Positions 3,092 to 24,541 of a DNA stretch of 27,071 nucleotides are shown here, piece after piece; position 1 is the stretch's first letter, and each line of letters begins with the position of its first letter. This DNA is from a virus. The notes beneath the pieces were generated by a model. The model did no database searches. It was given only the letters and a program-made list of their open reading frames with translations, and had not been told where the DNA came from. The stretch spans positions 1 through 27,071 of IMG/VR virus record IMGVR_UViG_3300045135_000870; one strand, given 5' to 3'. Made by a program: the position numbers and the translations under genes.

Positions 3092-3527
3092 TATGTGGTA
3101 CTATAAAAATGAGGCTTACGAGCCAACTGAAGAAGAACTGAAAGAGTGGGTAGGGTTTGTCTATGTCATTACGGATAAATCCAACGACAAGATGTATGTT
3201 GGGAAAAAGACATTCTGGTCAAAGAAAACCTTACCCCCACTCAAAGGTAAAACCAGAAAGCGAAGAAAGATTGTCGAGTCAGATTGGCGATCCTACTATG
3301 GATCCAGCGATCTCGTCAAACAACTGCTCCTCGAACACGGAGAGCAGAACTTTCATCGTGAGATATTATATTTCGGCAAATCGAAAGGTGAGCTTGGTTA
3401 CCTCGAAGCCAAAGAACAGTTCGATAGAAATGTATTGCTAGACGACCGTTATTATAACGGTATTATCAACTGTCGCATCCACAGAAATCATGTAAGGGGT
3501 TTACGAGGCTCCGAACATGATGTATAA
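3081..3527 (+). CDS. GIY-YIG family endonuclease (Seg-like)
   Basis: This 148-residue protein belongs to the GIY-YIG nuclease group widespread in T4-like phages. VGFVYVITD (residues 24-32) and MYVGKKTF are the two halves of the GIY-YIG signature. A basic segment follows, then SDWRSYYGSSD with the conserved Arg, and LEAKEQF with the metal-binding Glu. The start at 3081 overlaps the HTH gene. A later ATG at 3093 (MWYYKNEAY) matches the usual N-terminus of this group and is an equally good start. Such proteins act as free-standing homing endonucleases or DNA-repair nucleases. No intron is visible around it, so a free-standing enzyme is likely. Its 3' end contains the promoter for the RNase H gene. 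Confidence 0.8.
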   Translation: MTNNMWYYKNEAYEPTEEELKEWVGFVYVITDKSNDKMYVGKKTFWSKKTLPPLKGKTRKRRKIVESDWRSYYGSSDLVKQLLLEHGEQNFHREILYFGKSKGELGYLEAKEQFDRNVLLDDRYYNGIINCRIHRNHVRGLRGSEHDV

Positions 3528-3528
3528 T
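3496..3528 (+). promoter_or_regulatory. Early-type sigma70-like promoter (GGGG-TTTACG-17-TATAAT)
   Basis: GGGG followed by TTTACG (3500-3505), a 17-bp spacer and a perfect TATAAT (3523-3528) lie inside the end of the endonuclease gene, 25 bp before the RNase H ATG. It matches the promoter family seen six more times in this window and resembles T4 early promoters (GTTTAC/TATAAT). Confidence 0.7.
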
Positions 3529-3553
3529 AGTGGAGAATTAACAGGAGTATACT

Positions 3554-4405
3554 ATGATTTTACTTGACTTCAGCGGCATTGCCATTGCACCTATCGTAAT
3601 GGGTCAGGCCAAATATGATGACGAGAACCTTATCCGTCACATGATTCTAAACTCAATCCGTATGTACAAGCAGAAGTTCAAGGACTACGGTGACATGGTT
3701 ATCGTTGCTGATGGCGGTGGTAACTGGCGTAAAGACGTCTATCCTGAATATAAGGGTAAACGTAAGCAGAACCGTGATGAATCCAAGATCGACTGGGATA
3801 AGGCATTCCAGAATATCAACATGGTGCTTGAAGAGATCAAAGTAAATATGCCCTGGAAGGTTATTCACCAGTGGGGATGCGAGGCAGACGATACTATTGC
3901 AGAACTTGTTAAGTGGACACAGGAGTTTGGTAACTATGAAAAGGTTATGATCGTGTCTGCTGACCATGACTTTATCCAGCTGCAGAAATATGACAACGTG
4001 CAGCAGTTCTCTCCGAACACTAAGAAGTTCGTTAAAGATCCTAATCCGCGTCTGTACCAGCTGGAACATATCCTAAAAGGTTGTTCTGGTGATGGTGTAC
4101 CGAATGTGCTATCTGACGATGATACGTTCCTTGTAGAAGGTAAGCGTCAGAATGTTCTTTCGAAGAAAAAGAAAGAAGCATTACTCGAAGATCCACATGC
4201 ACTTGGTGAACAAGTGTACCGTAACTATCTCCGTAACAAAAAGATGATTGTTCTTACAGAAGAGTCAGAATGTCCTGATTCTGTAAAGCAAGAAATCATA
4301 AATAAATTTGAATCATATGAGACGCCTGCTCGTAACAAGGTGTTACCTTATCTTATCTCGAAGCAGTGTCGTTTGCTAGTTGAAGTAGTAGAGGAATTCT
4401 TTTAA
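3554..4405 (+). CDS. rnh: RNase H / 5'-3' exonuclease (T4 Rnh-like)
   Basis: This 283-residue protein aligns along its length with T4 RNase H, a FEN/PIN-fold 5' nuclease that removes RNA primers and adjacent DNA from lagging-strand fragments. Acidic metal ligands are visible: Asp5 in LLDFSG, Asp53 in VADGGGNW, GCEADDTIAEL (E110, D112, D113), SADHDF (D137, D139) and GCSGDGVPNV (D180). The arrangement LQKYDNVQQFSPNTKKFVK is shared with the T4 enzyme. An early-type promoter precedes it. The next gene follows after 1 nt. It would work with the phage replisome and a single-strand-binding protein encoded elsewhere. Confidence 0.93.
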   Translation: MILLDFSGIAIAPIVMGQAKYDDENLIRHMILNSIRMYKQKFKDYGDMVIVADGGGNWRKDVYPEYKGKRKQNRDESKIDWDKAFQNINMVLEEIKVNMPWKVIHQWGCEADDTIAELVKWTQEFGNYEKVMIVSADHDFIQLQKYDNVQQFSPNTKKFVKDPNPRLYQLEHILKGCSGDGVPNVLSDDDTFLVEGKRQNVLSKKKKEALLEDPHALGEQVYRNYLRNKKMIVLTEESECPDSVKQEIINKFESYETPARNKVLPYLISKQCRLLVEVVEEFF

Positions 4406-20531: not shown

Positions 20532-20565
20532 GGGGGTTTACAAACATACATATATAGCTTATATT
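20532..20565 (+). promoter_or_regulatory. Early-type promoter of the tRNA/structured-RNA array
   Basis: GGGGG, TTTACA (20537-20542), a 17-bp spacer and TATATT (20560-20565), with AAAAAAA upstream at 20516-20522. The expected start near 20572 lies just before the first structured RNA, so the array appears to be transcribed from here. Confidence 0.85.
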
Positions 20566-20579
20566 ACTACTATAACAAC

Positions 20580-20704
20580 AAGATCACTTAAGGCTGCACA
20601 CCATCAGCGACCAAACGTAAAAGGTAGGTATGCGCCGGCAGCAGAACCCGTAAAAGCCTGTGAGGGCGGAAGTGTTAAAGGGTGTGTTAGCTTTAAGTGA
20701 TCTT
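20580..20704 (+). ncRNA. Unidentified structured RNA E1 in the tRNA array (125 nt)
   Basis: The ends form a perfect 12-bp inverted repeat, AAGATCACTTAA (20580-20591) with TTAAGTGATCTT (20693-20704). It continues inward as GGCT/AGCT (one G-T) and, after one bulged T, GCACACC/GGTGTGT, giving about 23 pairs. The 78-nt core is non-coding and has no tRNA D- or T-arm. It starts about 8 nt after the predicted transcription start and ends 2 nt before tRNA-Asn, so it should be released by tRNA processing. T4 encodes two stable RNAs of unknown role (RNA C and D) in its tRNA cluster, a precedent by position and size only. Confidence 0.75.
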
Positions 20705-20706
20705 AT

Positions 20707-20781
20707 TCCGGATTAGCTCAGCGGTAGAGCAGTTGACTGTTAATCAATTGGTCGTAGGTTCGATCCCTACATCCGGAGCCA
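20707..20781 (+). tRNA. tRNA-Asn (GTT)
   Basis: Acceptor TCCGGAT/ATCCGGA, anticodon loop CTGTTAA giving GTT, T-arm GTAGG-TTCGATC-CCTAC, G73 and encoded CCA. Confidence 0.95.
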
Positions 20782-20878: not shown

Positions 20879-20953
20879 GAGGGTGAAGTGTTAATGGTTG
20901 CACGTCGGTCTCCAAAACCGAAAGAAGGGGTTCGATTCCTCTCACCTTTGCCA
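20879..20953 (+). tRNA. tRNA-Trp (CCA)
   Basis: Acceptor GAGGGTG/CACCTTT with two G-T pairs, anticodon stem TCGGT/ACCGA with loop CTCCAAA giving CCA, T-arm AGGGG-TTCGATT-CCTCT, and G73 as expected for Trp, with encoded CCA. The last base is also the first base of structured RNA E2's outer repeat. Confidence 0.9.
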
Positions 20954-21087
20954 TTACTTTGGTGATACACTGCTCGGTAGCATAACTGAAACATAGGTGT
21001 TCAGACCCTTGTTAGCAAATTCCTGAGACCATTCCTAGGTTCACGTCTCATATTGACTAATAGTAAACAGTGTATCTCCAAAGTAAT
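20953..21087 (+). ncRNA. Unidentified structured RNA E2 in the tRNA array (135 nt)
   Basis: The ends form a 20-position inverted repeat with one T-T mismatch: ATTACTTTGG-T-GATACACTG (20953-20972) and CAGTGTATC-T-CCAAAGTAAT (21068-21087). Inside, TGAGAC/GTCTCA (21024-21029 with 21045-21050) and CTGAA/TTCAG (20986-20990 with 21000-21004) predict two further hairpins. If the RNA began at 20964, it would end GTGTATC-T-CCA, like a tRNA acceptor with a discriminator and CCA, but no D- or T-arm is present. It fills the whole gap between tRNA-Trp and tRNA-Ile. Confidence 0.72.
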
Positions 21088-21162
21088 GTCTCATAGCTCA
21101 GTTGGTAGAGCATTCCACTGATAAGGGAAAGGTCACTGGTTCGAGTCCAGTTGAGACAACCA
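21087..21162 (+). tRNA. tRNA-Ile (GAT)
   Basis: Acceptor TGTCTCA/TGAGACA, D-arm GCTCAGTTGGTAGAGC, anticodon loop CTGATAA giving GAT (the top stem pair is an A-G mismatch), T-arm ACTGG-TTCGAGT-CCAGT, A73 and encoded CCA. The first base overlaps the E2 repeat. Confidence 0.92.
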
Positions 21163-21251: not shown

Positions 21252-21357
21252 GCGAGATGCGGTACATTATAGGGCATGTCCTAAGATGTACTGGACTATT
21301 AGGGAAAGGCGCTAAGTACCGGTAGTAGAAACCATAAAGGTTTCCATGCTCGCTCCA
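21252..21357 (+). ncRNA. Unidentified tRNA-like structured RNA E3 (106 nt)
   Basis: GCGAGATG (21252-21259) pairs with CAT-g-CTCGC (21345-21353) with one bulged G, followed by T and CCA, which looks like an acceptor end. CGGTAC/GTACCG (21260-21265 with 21316-21321) stacks inward. GAAACC-ATAAA-GGTTTC (21328-21344) sits exactly where a T-arm would be but lacks the TTCRA loop. No anticodon arm is evident. It ends the tRNA array just before the next promoter. It may be a degenerate tRNA-like RNA or the third member of the same class as E1 and E2. Confidence 0.65.
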
Positions 21358-21422: not shown

Positions 21423-21626
21423 ATGTACAGCTTCAATGAATCCGCTCGTGTAACTGGTGATCTTGCTTTCCACATTCTGTACCATGATCTGGACAAGATT
21501 GCACGTGACGAAGCAGAGGATAAGATTGCTTGTGATATTCTTGGTGGATTCCTTCCACCGTTGGTACAATCGCATGTCGATATGGCATTTGAACTTGTAA
21601 GTGATTTACGTAAGGAGCATAGTTAA
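21423..21626 (+). CDS. Hypothetical protein (67 aa), early-type unit
   Basis: A 67-residue helical acidic protein (MYSFNESARVTGDLAFHILY) with no recognised family. ACGGAGATATATA precedes the ATG. It overlaps the TauD-like gene by one base (TAATG), so both are likely expressed from the promoter just upstream. Confidence 0.7.
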   Translation: MYSFNESARVTGDLAFHILYHDLDKIARDEAEDKIACDILGGFLPPLVQSHVDMAFELVSDLRKEHS

Positions 21627-22447
21627 TGGACGCAGTTCGTTATGATATCGACTTTTCAAAAATGTCGATTGACGAGATTAAAGAGTTTGGTCGCAACATC
21701 TCTCGCGACAATGTAATCTTAGTACGTAATCAAAATCTTGACGAACCGGGTATTCTTCGCGTGTGCGAGAATATCGGGAAAGTCATGAAGCCAAAACGCT
21801 TCTTTATGCACCCCGATTACCCTGGTCTGTTCCGTGTTACGAATGAACGCAAAGAGGGTGAAAAGATCGGTATCTTTGCTGATAAAGAACTTGATTGGCA
21901 TAGTAATGGTAATGGTCGTCCAAGTGGTAAAGAATCTTGTGTAGCTCTTTACTGTGTTAAACCCGGTATCGATAGTGTTACTAGTTTCTGTGATACCCGT
22001 CAGGCTTATAATGATCTGCCCGATGATATTAAAGAGATCGTCAATGATGTAGATTGCACATTTCAATTTAAGAATAATACATTCTATAAACTTGAGCCTG
22101 ATGACAAAGAACTGATCATGTTCGAGAACAAGCGGATCTATCCTGAGGGTATTACTAAGCCTCTTGTTTACGAACATCCATATGATGGTCAAAAGGGTTT
22201 GTACTTTACCTTCCATTATATTCAGAATATGTGGCGTCGTAGTGGGGCTGATCTGGATCAGGAATGGCTAAAGCAATATCTGCTTGATCACGTATTCCAG
22301 GACAAGTACATCTTCCATCACGATGATTGGCAACCTGGCGACTTTATCTTTATGGATCAGTTCCATAGCATCCATAAGCGTAACGAAGTAAAAGGCGAAA
22401 GATTTTTGTATCGTATTAGCTTTGACTATGAAAACGCTTATACATAA
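21626..22447 (+). CDS. TauD/TfdA-like 2OG oxygenase with HxN in place of HxD
   Basis: A 273-residue protein of the TauD/TfdA fold. The proximal motif reads LDWHSNG (H92, N94), where the family has His-x-Asp/Glu. The distal part WQPGDFIFMDQFHSIHKR has His250, and LYRISF has Arg263 for 2OG. Loss of the acidic ligand recalls the iron-dependent halogenases (HxG/A), although those have Gly or Ala. Such proteins may still bind Fe and 2OG, or may use another reaction or none. The substrate is unknown. It is expressed with the small gene before it and followed by three tRNAs. Confidence 0.8.
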   Translation: MDAVRYDIDFSKMSIDEIKEFGRNISRDNVILVRNQNLDEPGILRVCENIGKVMKPKRFFMHPDYPGLFRVTNERKEGEKIGIFADKELDWHSNGNGRPSGKESCVALYCVKPGIDSVTSFCDTRQAYNDLPDDIKEIVNDVDCTFQFKNNTFYKLEPDDKELIMFENKRIYPEGITKPLVYEHPYDGQKGLYFTFHYIQNMWRRSGADLDQEWLKQYLLDHVFQDKYIFHHDDWQPGDFIFMDQFHSIHKRNEVKGERFLYRISFDYENAYT

Positions 22448-22455
22448 TAAGAATT

Positions 22456-22532
22456 CTCGGTATAGCACAGCCTGGTAGTGCGCTTGTTTTGGGTACAAGA
22501 GGTCGTTGGTTCGAATCCAGCTACCGAGACCA
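22456..22532 (+). tRNA. tRNA-Pro (TGG)
   Basis: Acceptor CTCGGTA/TACCGAG, anticodon stem CTTGT/ACAAG with loop TTTGGGT giving TGG, T-arm GTTGG-TTCGAAT-CCAGC, A73 and encoded CCA. Confidence 0.94.
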
Positions 22533-22536
22533 ATAT

Positions 22537-22609
22537 GCGGATGTTCTCCTGGGAGAGGACTCAGCCTTCCAAGCTGATGGAGTCGGTTCGAATCCGATCG
22601 TCCGCTCCA
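22537..22609 (+). tRNA. tRNA-Gly (TCC)
   Basis: Acceptor GCGGATG/CGTCCGC, anticodon stem CAGC/GCTG with loop CTTCCAA giving TCC, T-arm TCGG-TTCGAAT-CCGA, U73 typical for Gly, and encoded CCA. Confidence 0.93.
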
Positions 22610-22611
22610 AT

Positions 22612-22687
22612 GCCGGTCTAGCTCAGCTGGTAGAGCAACTGATTTGTAATCAGTGGGTCGGGGGTTCGAGTCCCTCGACCGGCACCA
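22612..22687 (+). tRNA. tRNA-Thr (TGT)
   Basis: Acceptor GCCGGTC/GACCGGC, D-arm GCTCAGCTGGTAGAGC, anticodon stem ACTGA/TCAGT with loop TTTGTAA giving TGT, T-arm CGGGGG-TTCGAGT-CCCTCG, A73 and encoded CCA. Confidence 0.95.
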
Positions 22688-22702
22688 TTATAGGACGTTG
22701 CC

Positions 22703-23338
22703 ATGTTTGAGATAATCTTATATAGTTTTATTTGGTGGCAGCTTTTGGCTGCCTTTATTGTTTCTGCGGGTTACCATCGTTACTTTGCCCATAGAGCATT
22801 TAAAGCAGGTGTATGGTACGAATACGTGGTATTGATCTTAGGACCACTGAGTGGTGCTGGTCATGTGTTAGGATGGGTAGGTGTACACCGTCTTCATCAC
22901 AATCATTCTGACACTCCAGAAGATCCGCATTCACCAAAGTACCAGCCTGTGTGGCGTGTGCTTACTTCTACATTTAAGGTTCCCCCGATCAAACACCGTC
23001 ATGTAATTGACTTACTTAAGAATCCTCGTGTCATGTGGTTCTATAAATGGCACCATGAAATTCGCTGTGCTACGTTTCTTTTGGGTTTACTTTTGCCTAT
23101 AGATTGGTTTATAATACTATTAGTGTTACCGATGTTCTGGGGTTACCTCGGCTTCGGTCTTTTGAATACGATCTGTCACTCAGGGGAAGGTGTACGTAAT
23201 TCTGCATTTGCTAATCTATTCACTGGCGGCGAAGGTTGGCATGCAAATCATCACGATAAGCCGAGAGACTGGCAGATTGGTAAGAAATGGTATGAATGGG
23301 ATCCGGCAGCATGGCTTATTCGATTAATCAAAAAGTAA
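22703..23338 (+). CDS. Fatty acid (acyl-lipid/acyl-CoA) desaturase, delta-9-like
   Basis: A 211-residue integral-membrane di-iron desaturase. All three histidine boxes are present: HRYFAH (residues 25-30), HRLHH (62-66) and HANHH (180-184, in GEGWHANHH). Hydrophobic segments near residues 5-22, 41-60 and 124-150 fit the desaturase topology. It is shorter than bacterial delta-9 desaturases but has the complete metal site. It would introduce a double bond into host membrane acyl chains, altering membrane fluidity during infection. It overlaps the next gene by 28 nt. Such genes are rare in phages and count as auxiliary metabolic genes. Confidence 0.92.
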   Translation: MFEIILYSFIWWQLLAAFIVSAGYHRYFAHRAFKAGVWYEYVVLILGPLSGAGHVLGWVGVHRLHHNHSDTPEDPHSPKYQPVWRVLTSTFKVPPIKHRHVIDLLKNPRVMWFYKWHHEIRCATFLLGLLLPIDWFIILLVLPMFWGYLGFGLLNTICHSGEGVRNSAFANLFTGGEGWHANHHDKPRDWQIGKKWYEWDPAAWLIRLIKK

Positions 23339-23913
23339 TAACTCTTGAAGAGTATGGTCTAGATAATTTCTGGACTGAACTGAAGCGTATTCGACAAGAA
23401 AATAAATTGTATGATAAACGTAATATCGAATGGTTTGATATTCTACCCGATACGTTTATGAACTATCCTGAATGGTTTTTTCTTTTTGACGGAGATAAAC
23501 CAGCAGCATTTGCCACAATCCAAAAATACTATGATGGATGTTATAGGGTATTAACCCGAACTTACATCTATCGCGACTATCGCCGATTCGTAAGTCCGAA
23601 ATCCGATAAGTCGCTTACATCTCCGATGATAAGATTGCTTCCATATCAGCTAGATTATATAAAAGGATATGATACTGCTTTTGTATCAATGCAACATCTT
23701 TCCCGCCGGCCCGCTATGCAAAGATTTGCTGATAAGATGGAATATAGTACTAACTTAGATTGGGATATGGCCCCAAACATGATGCTAACATGTGCCGAGG
23801 ACTATGGTAAGGATTGTTGGCAGAGTATCATATATAATGGTAACAAGCCAAAATTACCTGAAATTACTACAGAAGAGTGGAAACAGAGATATGGCAGAGC
23901 AGTGTCTGATTGA
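23311..23913 (+). CDS. GNAT acyltransferase-like protein
   Basis: A 200-residue protein, start ATG 23311 (MAYSINQKVITLEEYG) rather than 23296. EWFFLFDGDKPAAFATIQKYY and CYRVLTRTYIYRDYRR resemble the central beta-sheet and acetyl-CoA-binding arm of GNAT acyltransferases. The usual R/Q-x-x-G-x-G/A motif is not clear, so the assignment is tentative. It overlaps the desaturase and the following oxygenase, and may act on the same substrate as one of them. That is inference. Confidence 0.55.
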   Translation: MAYSINQKVITLEEYGLDNFWTELKRIRQENKLYDKRNIEWFDILPDTFMNYPEWFFLFDGDKPAAFATIQKYYDGCYRVLTRTYIYRDYRRFVSPKSDKSLTSPMIRLLPYQLDYIKGYDTAFVSMQHLSRRPAMQRFADKMEYSTNLDWDMAPNMMLTCAEDYGKDCWQSIIYNGNKPKLPEITTEEWKQRYGRAVSD

Positions 23914-24541
23914 GCAAACTAAACGAACCAGAGTGGGTGGTACTGGTCCAAGACGGAATAAGCTAAAGGTATTCCAGAAGATTTGCGACGTACCGCATCA
24001 GCTCGTCGACGAGCTTAACTATATCTTGGATACGAATAGCAGCAATGATATCGGTGGTGACAATTACGGTATTAGTCAAAACTGCAATTATAATGAGGTG
24101 TTTAACGTAGGCAACACCTGGCGCCAACTTCTCCTGCAGAAACGTATGGATTCAGAGTCAGATGATGTTGATGAATATTTGTATACGGATTGGGACACCA
24201 ATTACAAATTGCGCTACACCAAGCCAGTGCTGGATGATCACTTCCATAATGTCTATCGCTTCCGCATGAGCGAGATGAAGGGTGGCCACGAACTAAACTG
24301 GCATATCGATGCTGACACGAGCGTGATTTGTAGAGCACAGATCTGTTTAAATGAAAACGATTCAATATTCCAATTTCGTACCAAAGAAGGTGAGTATGAG
24401 TTTAAGATGAAACCTGGTGAGATGTGGTTCATTAATACTGGATGGAATCATAGAGTGGTTAATGGTGATTCTCTTAGAAGAACCGCGATCTTTGGATTTC
24501 ATTTTGACGACCTGAAGAACAATGATTTAATTCTACTTTAA
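23891..24541 (+). CDS. 2OG-Fe(II) oxygenase, aspartyl/asparaginyl beta-hydroxylase-like
   Basis: A 216-residue protein with a complete Fe/2OG site: HELNWHIDAD (H138, D140), NHRVVNGDS (His187) and LRRTAIFGF (Arg196 or Arg197). The order HxD, PGEMWFINTGWNHRVVN and RR matches the Asp/Asn beta-hydroxylase group of cupin-like oxygenases. ATG 23891 is chosen; the longer frame from 23792 is a shadow of the preceding gene. It overlaps that gene by 23 nt. It is the fourth oxygenase-like gene in the window. The substrate, possibly a virion or host protein, is unknown. Confidence 0.8.
   Translation: MAEQCLIEQTKRTRVGGTGPRRNKLKVFQKICDVPHQLVDELNYILDTNSSNDIGGDNYGISQNCNYNEVFNVGNTWRQLLLQKRMDSESDDVDEYLYTDWDTNYKLRYTKPVLDDHFHNVYRFRMSEMKGGHELNWHIDADTSVICRAQICLNENDSIFQFRTKEGEYEFKMKPGEMWFINTGWNHRVVNGDSLRRTAIFGFHFDDLKNNDLILL

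Follow-up and report, generated by a model that had tools for sequence, protein, structure and literature searches.

A structured element in a viral tRNA cluster as a putative member of a family of small RNAs with a constant frame and exchangeable interiors

An inverted repeat that fills the gap between two tRNA genes

The stretch of DNA analyzed here (the window) is the virus record IMGVR_UViG_3300045135_000870, 27,071 bases long, in which ARAGORN called 11 tRNA genes and found no tmRNA. Between tRNA-Trp(CCA) and tRNA-Ile(GAT) lies a gap of 133 nt (20954-21086) that is filled by an inverted repeat, E2, running from 20953 to 21087. Its outermost pair joins A20953, the last base of tRNA-Trp and the end of its CCA, to U21087, the first base of tRNA-Ile. 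With these two tRNA-shared bases counted, the arms (20953-20972 and 21068-21087) pair at 19/20 positions, the sole mismatch being U20963.U21077. A preliminary description of this DNA, made from the letters alone, had reported a 20-position inverted repeat with one mismatch, two predicted hairpins inside it, and first and last bases shared with the flanking tRNAs, and all of this was confirmed, the hairpins being predicted with pair probabilities of about 0.8-0.9. G20964 and the letters GTGTATC-T-CCA at 21070-21080 also read as described. Below, the outer stem is called the frame (S1 for E2) and the interior the payload; features are collected in Table 1.

Table 1. Features around E2, in window positions
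Feature	Position	Strand	Remarks
Promoter-like block (GGTTTACAAAC..TATATTACTACTAT)	20539..20579	+	just upstream of E1
E1, same kind of element, frame S3	20577..20707	+	payload homologous to S2 payloads of L016 and L066
tRNA-Trp(CCA), 5' neighbor of E2	20879..20953	+	ARAGORN
E2 left arm of frame S1 (TTACTTTGGTGATACACTG)	20954..20972	+	
U of the conserved U.U mismatch, frame position 10	20963	+	partner 21077; unpaired in 47/47
E2 payload, 95 nt	20973..21067	+	singleton among 108 payloads; no T-arm by the census rule
Predicted hairpin 1, 5 bp	20974..20989	+	pair probability 0.85-0.94
Predicted hairpin 2, 6 bp	21024..21050	+	pair probability 0.77-0.84
E2 right arm of frame S1 (CAGTGTATCTCCAAAGTAA)	21068..21086	+	21077-21080 read T-CCA, unconserved in the family
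tRNA-Ile(GAT), 3' neighbor, flush with E2	21087..21162	+	ARAGORN
E3, structured spacer RNA after tRNA-Lys	21252..21356	+	stem GCGAG/CTCGC

E2 was the only inverted repeat in the window with at least 19/20 paired positions and a loop of 30-160 nt, and 0/30 dinucleotide-preserving shuffles contained one. The predicted RNA fold of E2 has an energy of -42.1 kcal/mol (z = -5.6), and 0/200 shuffles were equally good. Neither ARAGORN nor the Rfam model RF00005 called E2 as a tRNA. Rfam at its gathering threshold matched only tRNA, both in the window and in 8 related loci; sub-threshold Rfam matches were dismissed as chance. The fold and the lack of a tRNA call support the earlier view that E2 is a structured element and no ordinary tRNA. 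By base-pair probabilities, the interior outside hairpins 1 and 2 is less well determined, and for this payload, a singleton without a T-arm, the inner fold is a prediction from folding energy alone.

Other features of the cluster deserve mention. E3, a candidate element of this kind, has no relatives among the 108 payloads described below and is a singleton. The promoter-like pattern upstream of E1 occurs with the same 39-nt span in 10 viral stretches, with tRNA genes at 9/10 of the loci. Genes for a TauD-like dioxygenase, a fatty acid desaturase-like protein, and a weak Asp/Arg hydroxylase-like protein (21626-24541) sit among and after the last tRNA genes. The relatives of the TauD-like gene (L003-L009) are without tRNA genes in the stretches compared, and hence there is no E2 there.

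Frames, tRNA neighbors, and carriers

The nearest relative with a tRNA cluster (L002, from the same contig as L011) has the same outer stem around an unrelated interior. Pattern scans of IMG/VR found this stem, S1, in many contigs, and 58 elements were extracted, 47 of them distinct; L001 (a copy of the window), L002 (a copy of L011), and L089 (T4) were left out. This set of 47 preceded the last scan for a second frame, S2. A later set, made after that scan with different arm limits and from the majority tRNA strand of each locus only, holds 52 S1 and 53 S2 elements.

The S1 consensus arms are TTACTTTGATGATACACTR ... YAGTGTATCTTCTAAGTAA. Thirteen of the 19 positions are paired in 47/47 elements and four further positions in 46/47, the related contigs and elements behind these counts being phylogenetically non-independent. 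Position 10 is mismatched in every element (46 U.U, 1 C.U), position 7 is U.U in 39/47, and position 11, beside the unpaired position 10, is G-C in 47/47. Both-side changes were found at positions 3, 4, 6, 8, 9, 15, 17, 18, and 19 across the 47 elements. At position 3, 38 elements have A-U and 5 have G-C; at position 4, 23 have C-G and 8 have U-A; and at position 19, 21 have G-C, 20 have A-U, and one each has U-G and C-G. At position 9, A-U becomes G-C in 2 elements, one of which is the window's. When arms were mated with their own partners, 386/390 cells were paired (13 positions in 30 distinct arm pairs), compared with a maximum of 372 for random right arms. Because two mismatches are kept and covariation surrounds them, the stem does not behave as a DNA repeat free of pairing constraint. 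E2 fits the definition of S1, with arms near the consensus, the mismatch at position 10, and G-C at position 11. Retention of a complementary repeat in homologous phages had been set beforehand as a test that could refute the initial reading of E2; the repeat is kept, by compensatory change.

S1 elements abut tRNA genes. According to ARAGORN, 37/52 start 0 nt after a tRNA (Lys-UUU 31, Phe 3, and Leu, Arg, and Trp 1 each) and 13/52 have no called tRNA within 20 nt upstream, counts that describe the sample, as the loci were retrieved by frame sequence, which introduces partial ascertainment into both the prevalence of frames and the link to Lys-UUU. The letters CCA stand directly 5' of the element in 39/47, and its orientation is that of its own tRNAs in 47/47. 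Some clusters hold several S1 elements (four in tandem in L042, two in L051, and two in L064). The suggestion that E2 and its flanking tRNAs form a joint processing substrate fits these flush junctions, which appear to be a family rule. For a PrrC/Lys-UUU link, the position of the elements is at most suggestive.

Further recurrent frames came from a search for long stems near tRNAs. S2, with arms TCTGTTTTCACATGCAC ... GTGCAGTTGAAAACAGA, has both-side changes and keeps a 2x2 internal loop, as seen in a list covering both strands from which no element counts were drawn. In the later set, the end of 24/53 S2 elements, by a short arm definition, lies 3-6 nt ahead of a tRNA (Cys 9, Gln 5, Met 5, Tyr 2, Asn 2, Ile 1), and for 29/53 no tRNA was called in the 20 nt downstream. 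The scan for S3 returned, besides the E1 of the window, L019 only. In L067, a relative (77%) of the L082 payload lies in an apparent fourth frame.

Some smaller observations concern the surroundings of these elements. A candidate further frame, ATTCAGTACGTACT..AGTACCTACTGAAT, of about 111 nt is present in L015 (2811-2921), L017 (8309-8419), L020 (423-533), and L057 (678-788). Hairpins of 60-66 nt (GAGAACATGAAATGTA..TACATTTCATGTTCTA and variants) recur near tRNAs in L050 (8536-8597), L052 (3654-3713), L066 (3510-3571), and L013 (2204-2269). In L012, a reading frame that by eye resembles a GIY-YIG homing endonuclease (3263-3900, minus strand) lies directly 5' of an S1 element; the T4 tRNA cluster includes segB.

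The carriers appear to include large T4-like phages. Of 11 records tested, 5 had gp23 (5/10 without the window), including all five longer than 150 kb. The window record is a 27-kb fragment without gp23, and the gp23-phage setting of E2 rests on its relatives. The nearest cultured match to the gp23 of a 195-kb record is that of Sinorhizobium phage phiM12 (68%), and the nearest matches to the ribonucleotide reductase of the window are roseophage proteins (65%). These matches point to carriers that are relatives of alphaproteobacterial phages. With six blastn queries (window E2, L013 E2, the L042 tandem, L038 S2, L038 S1, and window E1) at E up to 10, no framed elements were found in cultured phages among 50,697 phage records; short matches in such records were dismissed as chance. 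The exact two-arm patterns of S1 and S2, which miss variants, matched 0 stretches of the GTDB genome set. A literature search whose coverage excluded most subscription papers returned no recognized description of such framed elements.

Payload families and their exchange

The payload set numbers 108, made up of 105 distinct elements (52 S1 and 53 S2), two S3 elements, and E3. Blast placed them in 55 clusters, 27 multi-member and 28 singletons, and 6 clusters contain more than one frame. There were 12 cross-frame payload pairs, with E from 5e-8 to 1e-30, while five shuffled payload sets gave 0 hits. For example, the S1 payload of L052 matches the S2 payload of L051 at 88% over 111 nt (E = 1e-30), that of L064 matches the S2 payload of L088 at 92% over 66 nt, and that of L053 matches the S2 payload of L090 at 92% over 83 nt; the E1 payload (S3) matches the S2 payload of L016 at 79% over 63 nt. 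Alignments between S1 and S2 payloads extend from base 1 or 3 of the S1 payload to its end or to one base short of it, and the S2-S3 alignments cover the middle part.

The L058 payload occurs in L085 at 98.5% identity, inside a frame with a compensated change. In the other direction, unrelated payloads occupy the same frame at one locus. L020 and L061 are 95% and 98% identical in their flanks (200 nt each side) and near-identical in their S1 arms, and their payloads, 54 and 73 nt long, are unrelated. L054 and L066 present the same picture for S2, with flanks at 89% and 94% and unrelated payloads. Such same-locus, different-payload pairs above a flank cutoff of 80% number four, these two included.

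Many payloads have a tRNA-like feature. A strict T-arm rule (T-loop signature, closing G-C, and at least 4/5 pairs) was satisfied by 46/108 payloads from 21/55 clusters, compared with a mean of 0.5 and a maximum of 4/108 over 200 rounds of shuffling; two T-arms were present in 6 payloads and three in 3. The T-arm often lies directly 5' of the 3' frame arm, a tRNA-like placement. A census of 3' hairpins under a narrower rule counted 14/47 S1 elements, where the null had a mean of 2.5 and a maximum of 9. Both-side pair changes were found within many payload clusters (for example, cluster 1 has six and cluster 13 has four), and none were seen in clusters 7, 8, 12, 14, 17, 18, 19, 20, and 22, several of which have two members.

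In S1 elements with a T-arm, the T-loop lies about 14-15 bp from the mismatch. The 7-bp acceptor stem and 5-bp T-stem of tRNA add up to 12 bp, as given in passages of PMC4919913. With this spacing of about 14-15 bp in place of 12 bp, the ruler rule does not predict cleavage at G20964 by RNase P. Cleavage by RNase P seemingly needs a T-loop or a similar loop and can dispense with the D-loop, according to the same passages (PMC4919913); this need fits payloads with T-arms but does not fit E2 itself.

Three stretches have the left arm of S1 together with the greater part of the L017 payload but lack a right arm (L015 1783-1828, L018 604-649, and L036 4360-4405). These are perhaps decaying elements.

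Interpretation and comparison with known systems

Taken together, we consider it likely that E2 belongs to a family of small structured RNAs encoded in the tRNA operons of uncultivated T4-like phages and built from a constant frame and an exchangeable payload. The frame would be a terminal helix, about 19 bp long, that contains a conserved mismatch motif internally and directly adjoins a tRNA gene. The payload would be a variable segment of about 40-130 nt, closed by the frame and often tRNA-like, with T-arms. This reading draws on what is seen in the sequences, namely, compensatory change in the frames, flush junctions, orientation with the tRNAs, payload families, and exchange in both directions. 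It adds two points that the preliminary description lacked, that the interior of E2 is probably the variable part and its stem the shared frame. E2 would be cotranscribed with the tRNAs; one of its ends would arise through 3' maturation of tRNA-Trp and the other through RNase P action at tRNA-Ile. An extra cut within the frame is possible, by RNase III or by RNase P at G20964, and the product would be a stable RNA of about 110-133 nt. Less securely, payloads may mimic tRNAs or bind proteins in the conflict between phage and host.

If the frame served only as a spacer, that is, as an RNase III or leader/trailer helix that splits tRNA precursors around neutral filler, flush tRNA junctions and long helices would be expected, but many adjacent tRNA genes in these clusters lie a few nt apart without any frame. 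Moreover, 27 multi-member interior families, many with both-side pair changes, are unexpected of filler, and we regard this explanation as unlikely.

An element acting at the DNA level is slightly less probable again. Integron attC sites have an imperfect inverted repeat, conserved mismatches, and a variable interior, and framed elements resemble them in all three respects. The arms would then be terminal inverted repeats or an attC-like folded site, and the interior would be the cargo of a recombinase. Tandem copies with different interiors (four in L042 and two in L051), the recurrence of an interior at different places, and the swapping of interiors at a single locus would all follow. However, the terminal repeats of one enzyme would tend to match, whereas S1 keeps its mismatch at position 10 throughout and U.U at position 7 in most elements. 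The arm sequence also differs from that of attC, orientation is tied to the tRNAs in all 47 elements, and interiors keep RNA-type changes on both sides of pairs as well as canonical T-arms. In addition, the same interior shifts between frames of unrelated sequence, and inspection of the flanks by eye showed no target duplication.

The preliminary description had proposed that cleavage at G20964 would leave an acceptor-like stem with an encoded CCA. The tetranucleotide that follows the inner helix is TTCT in 43 of the 52 S1 elements, TTCA in 4, TTTT in 2, and TTCC, TCTC, and TCCA in 1 each. The encoded CCA thus did not hold up: TCCA occurs in 1/52, the window only, and is, across this set, private to its E2, where it arose from an A-U to G-C change adjoining a U.U repaired to U-A. 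The acceptor-like boundary fared better, being compatible with the invariant G-C at that place, and a conserved G-C next to a never-paired position would suit an enzyme that reads the helix end there. A tRNA-like RNA with an acceptor stem and encoded CCA, possibly aminoacylated, is nonetheless very improbable, as this G-C and the T-arms that adjoin the acceptor-like strand in many relatives are set against a single TCCA and an E2 that itself has no T-arm and is called by neither ARAGORN nor Rfam.

Compared with tRNAs in general, the framed elements have in common the T-arm of many payloads and flush junctions within the same operon, and they differ in going uncalled as tRNA, in lacking a conserved CCA, and in having a 19-bp terminal helix. 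A likeness in place and build is seen to RNAC and RNAD of T4, also designated species 1 and species 2 RNA. These small RNAs, 139 and 119 nt long, are annotated within the tRNA cluster of a phage that is gp23 bearing, like the large carriers here, and E2 likewise belongs to a tRNA cluster. RNAD begins 1 nt beyond tRNA-Arg, comparable to the flush elements, and the T-arm of RNAC (CCGGGUUCGAAUCCCGG) adjoins the 3' terminal strand, as in many payloads. Species 1 RNA was reportedly cut by RNase III and RNase P, according to early work. RNAC is present in 718 and RNAD in 704 records of cultured T4 relatives, and passages of PMC3014915 and PMC9697503 give their role as unknown. Unlike the elements described here, RNAC and RNAD lack frames S1, S2, and S3, and blast gave no link between them and any of 89 other payloads; in view of this missing sequence link, we claim a resemblance and not membership. 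GOLLD and ROOL are phage RNAs of unknown role, often near tRNA islands, and GOLLD is often longer than 800 nt, according to passages of PMC12286853. Both are much longer than the elements here and share with them the tRNA-island setting; their Rfam covariance models matched neither the window nor 8 related loci.

Genes involved in host conflict typically turn over fast at a fixed locus, and a role in phage-host conflict would explain the fast turnover and exchange of payloads. Among such roles, mimicry of tRNAs against tRNA-targeting defenses is our leading guess, albeit a weak and doubtful one, drawn from the turnover, the T-arms, and the tRNA neighbors. A broader view, which we offer tentatively, is that T4-like phages carry modular RNA cassettes in which constant terminal frames (at least S1, S2, and S3) are read by proteins and structured payloads, often with T-arms, come from a large pool exchanged between phages and between frames. 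The cassettes would form a fast-evolving arsenal, for example, of decoys for tRNA-targeting immunity, made and excised with the tRNAs, of which T4 RNAC and RNAD would be domesticated remnants. According to PMC11555353, phage tRNAs are able to evade retrons as well as other defenses; if payloads are tRNA mimics, the contest over tRNAs between phages and bacterial immunity would gain a layer made of RNA. The natural variants and clear module boundaries make the functions of frame and payload separately testable, with built-in controls in the form of one frame with different payloads and one payload in different frames.

Two further kinds of RNA gene were observed in records of the collection. 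A 342-kb record (L056) has a tRNA with anticodon CTA at 990-1064, labeled Pyl by ARAGORN, which is a possible suppressor tRNA. ARAGORN also called a tmRNA with the tag ANNNYAPEMAKLAA in L035 (2104-2491) and L044 (4815-5202), and both of these records also have an S1 element.
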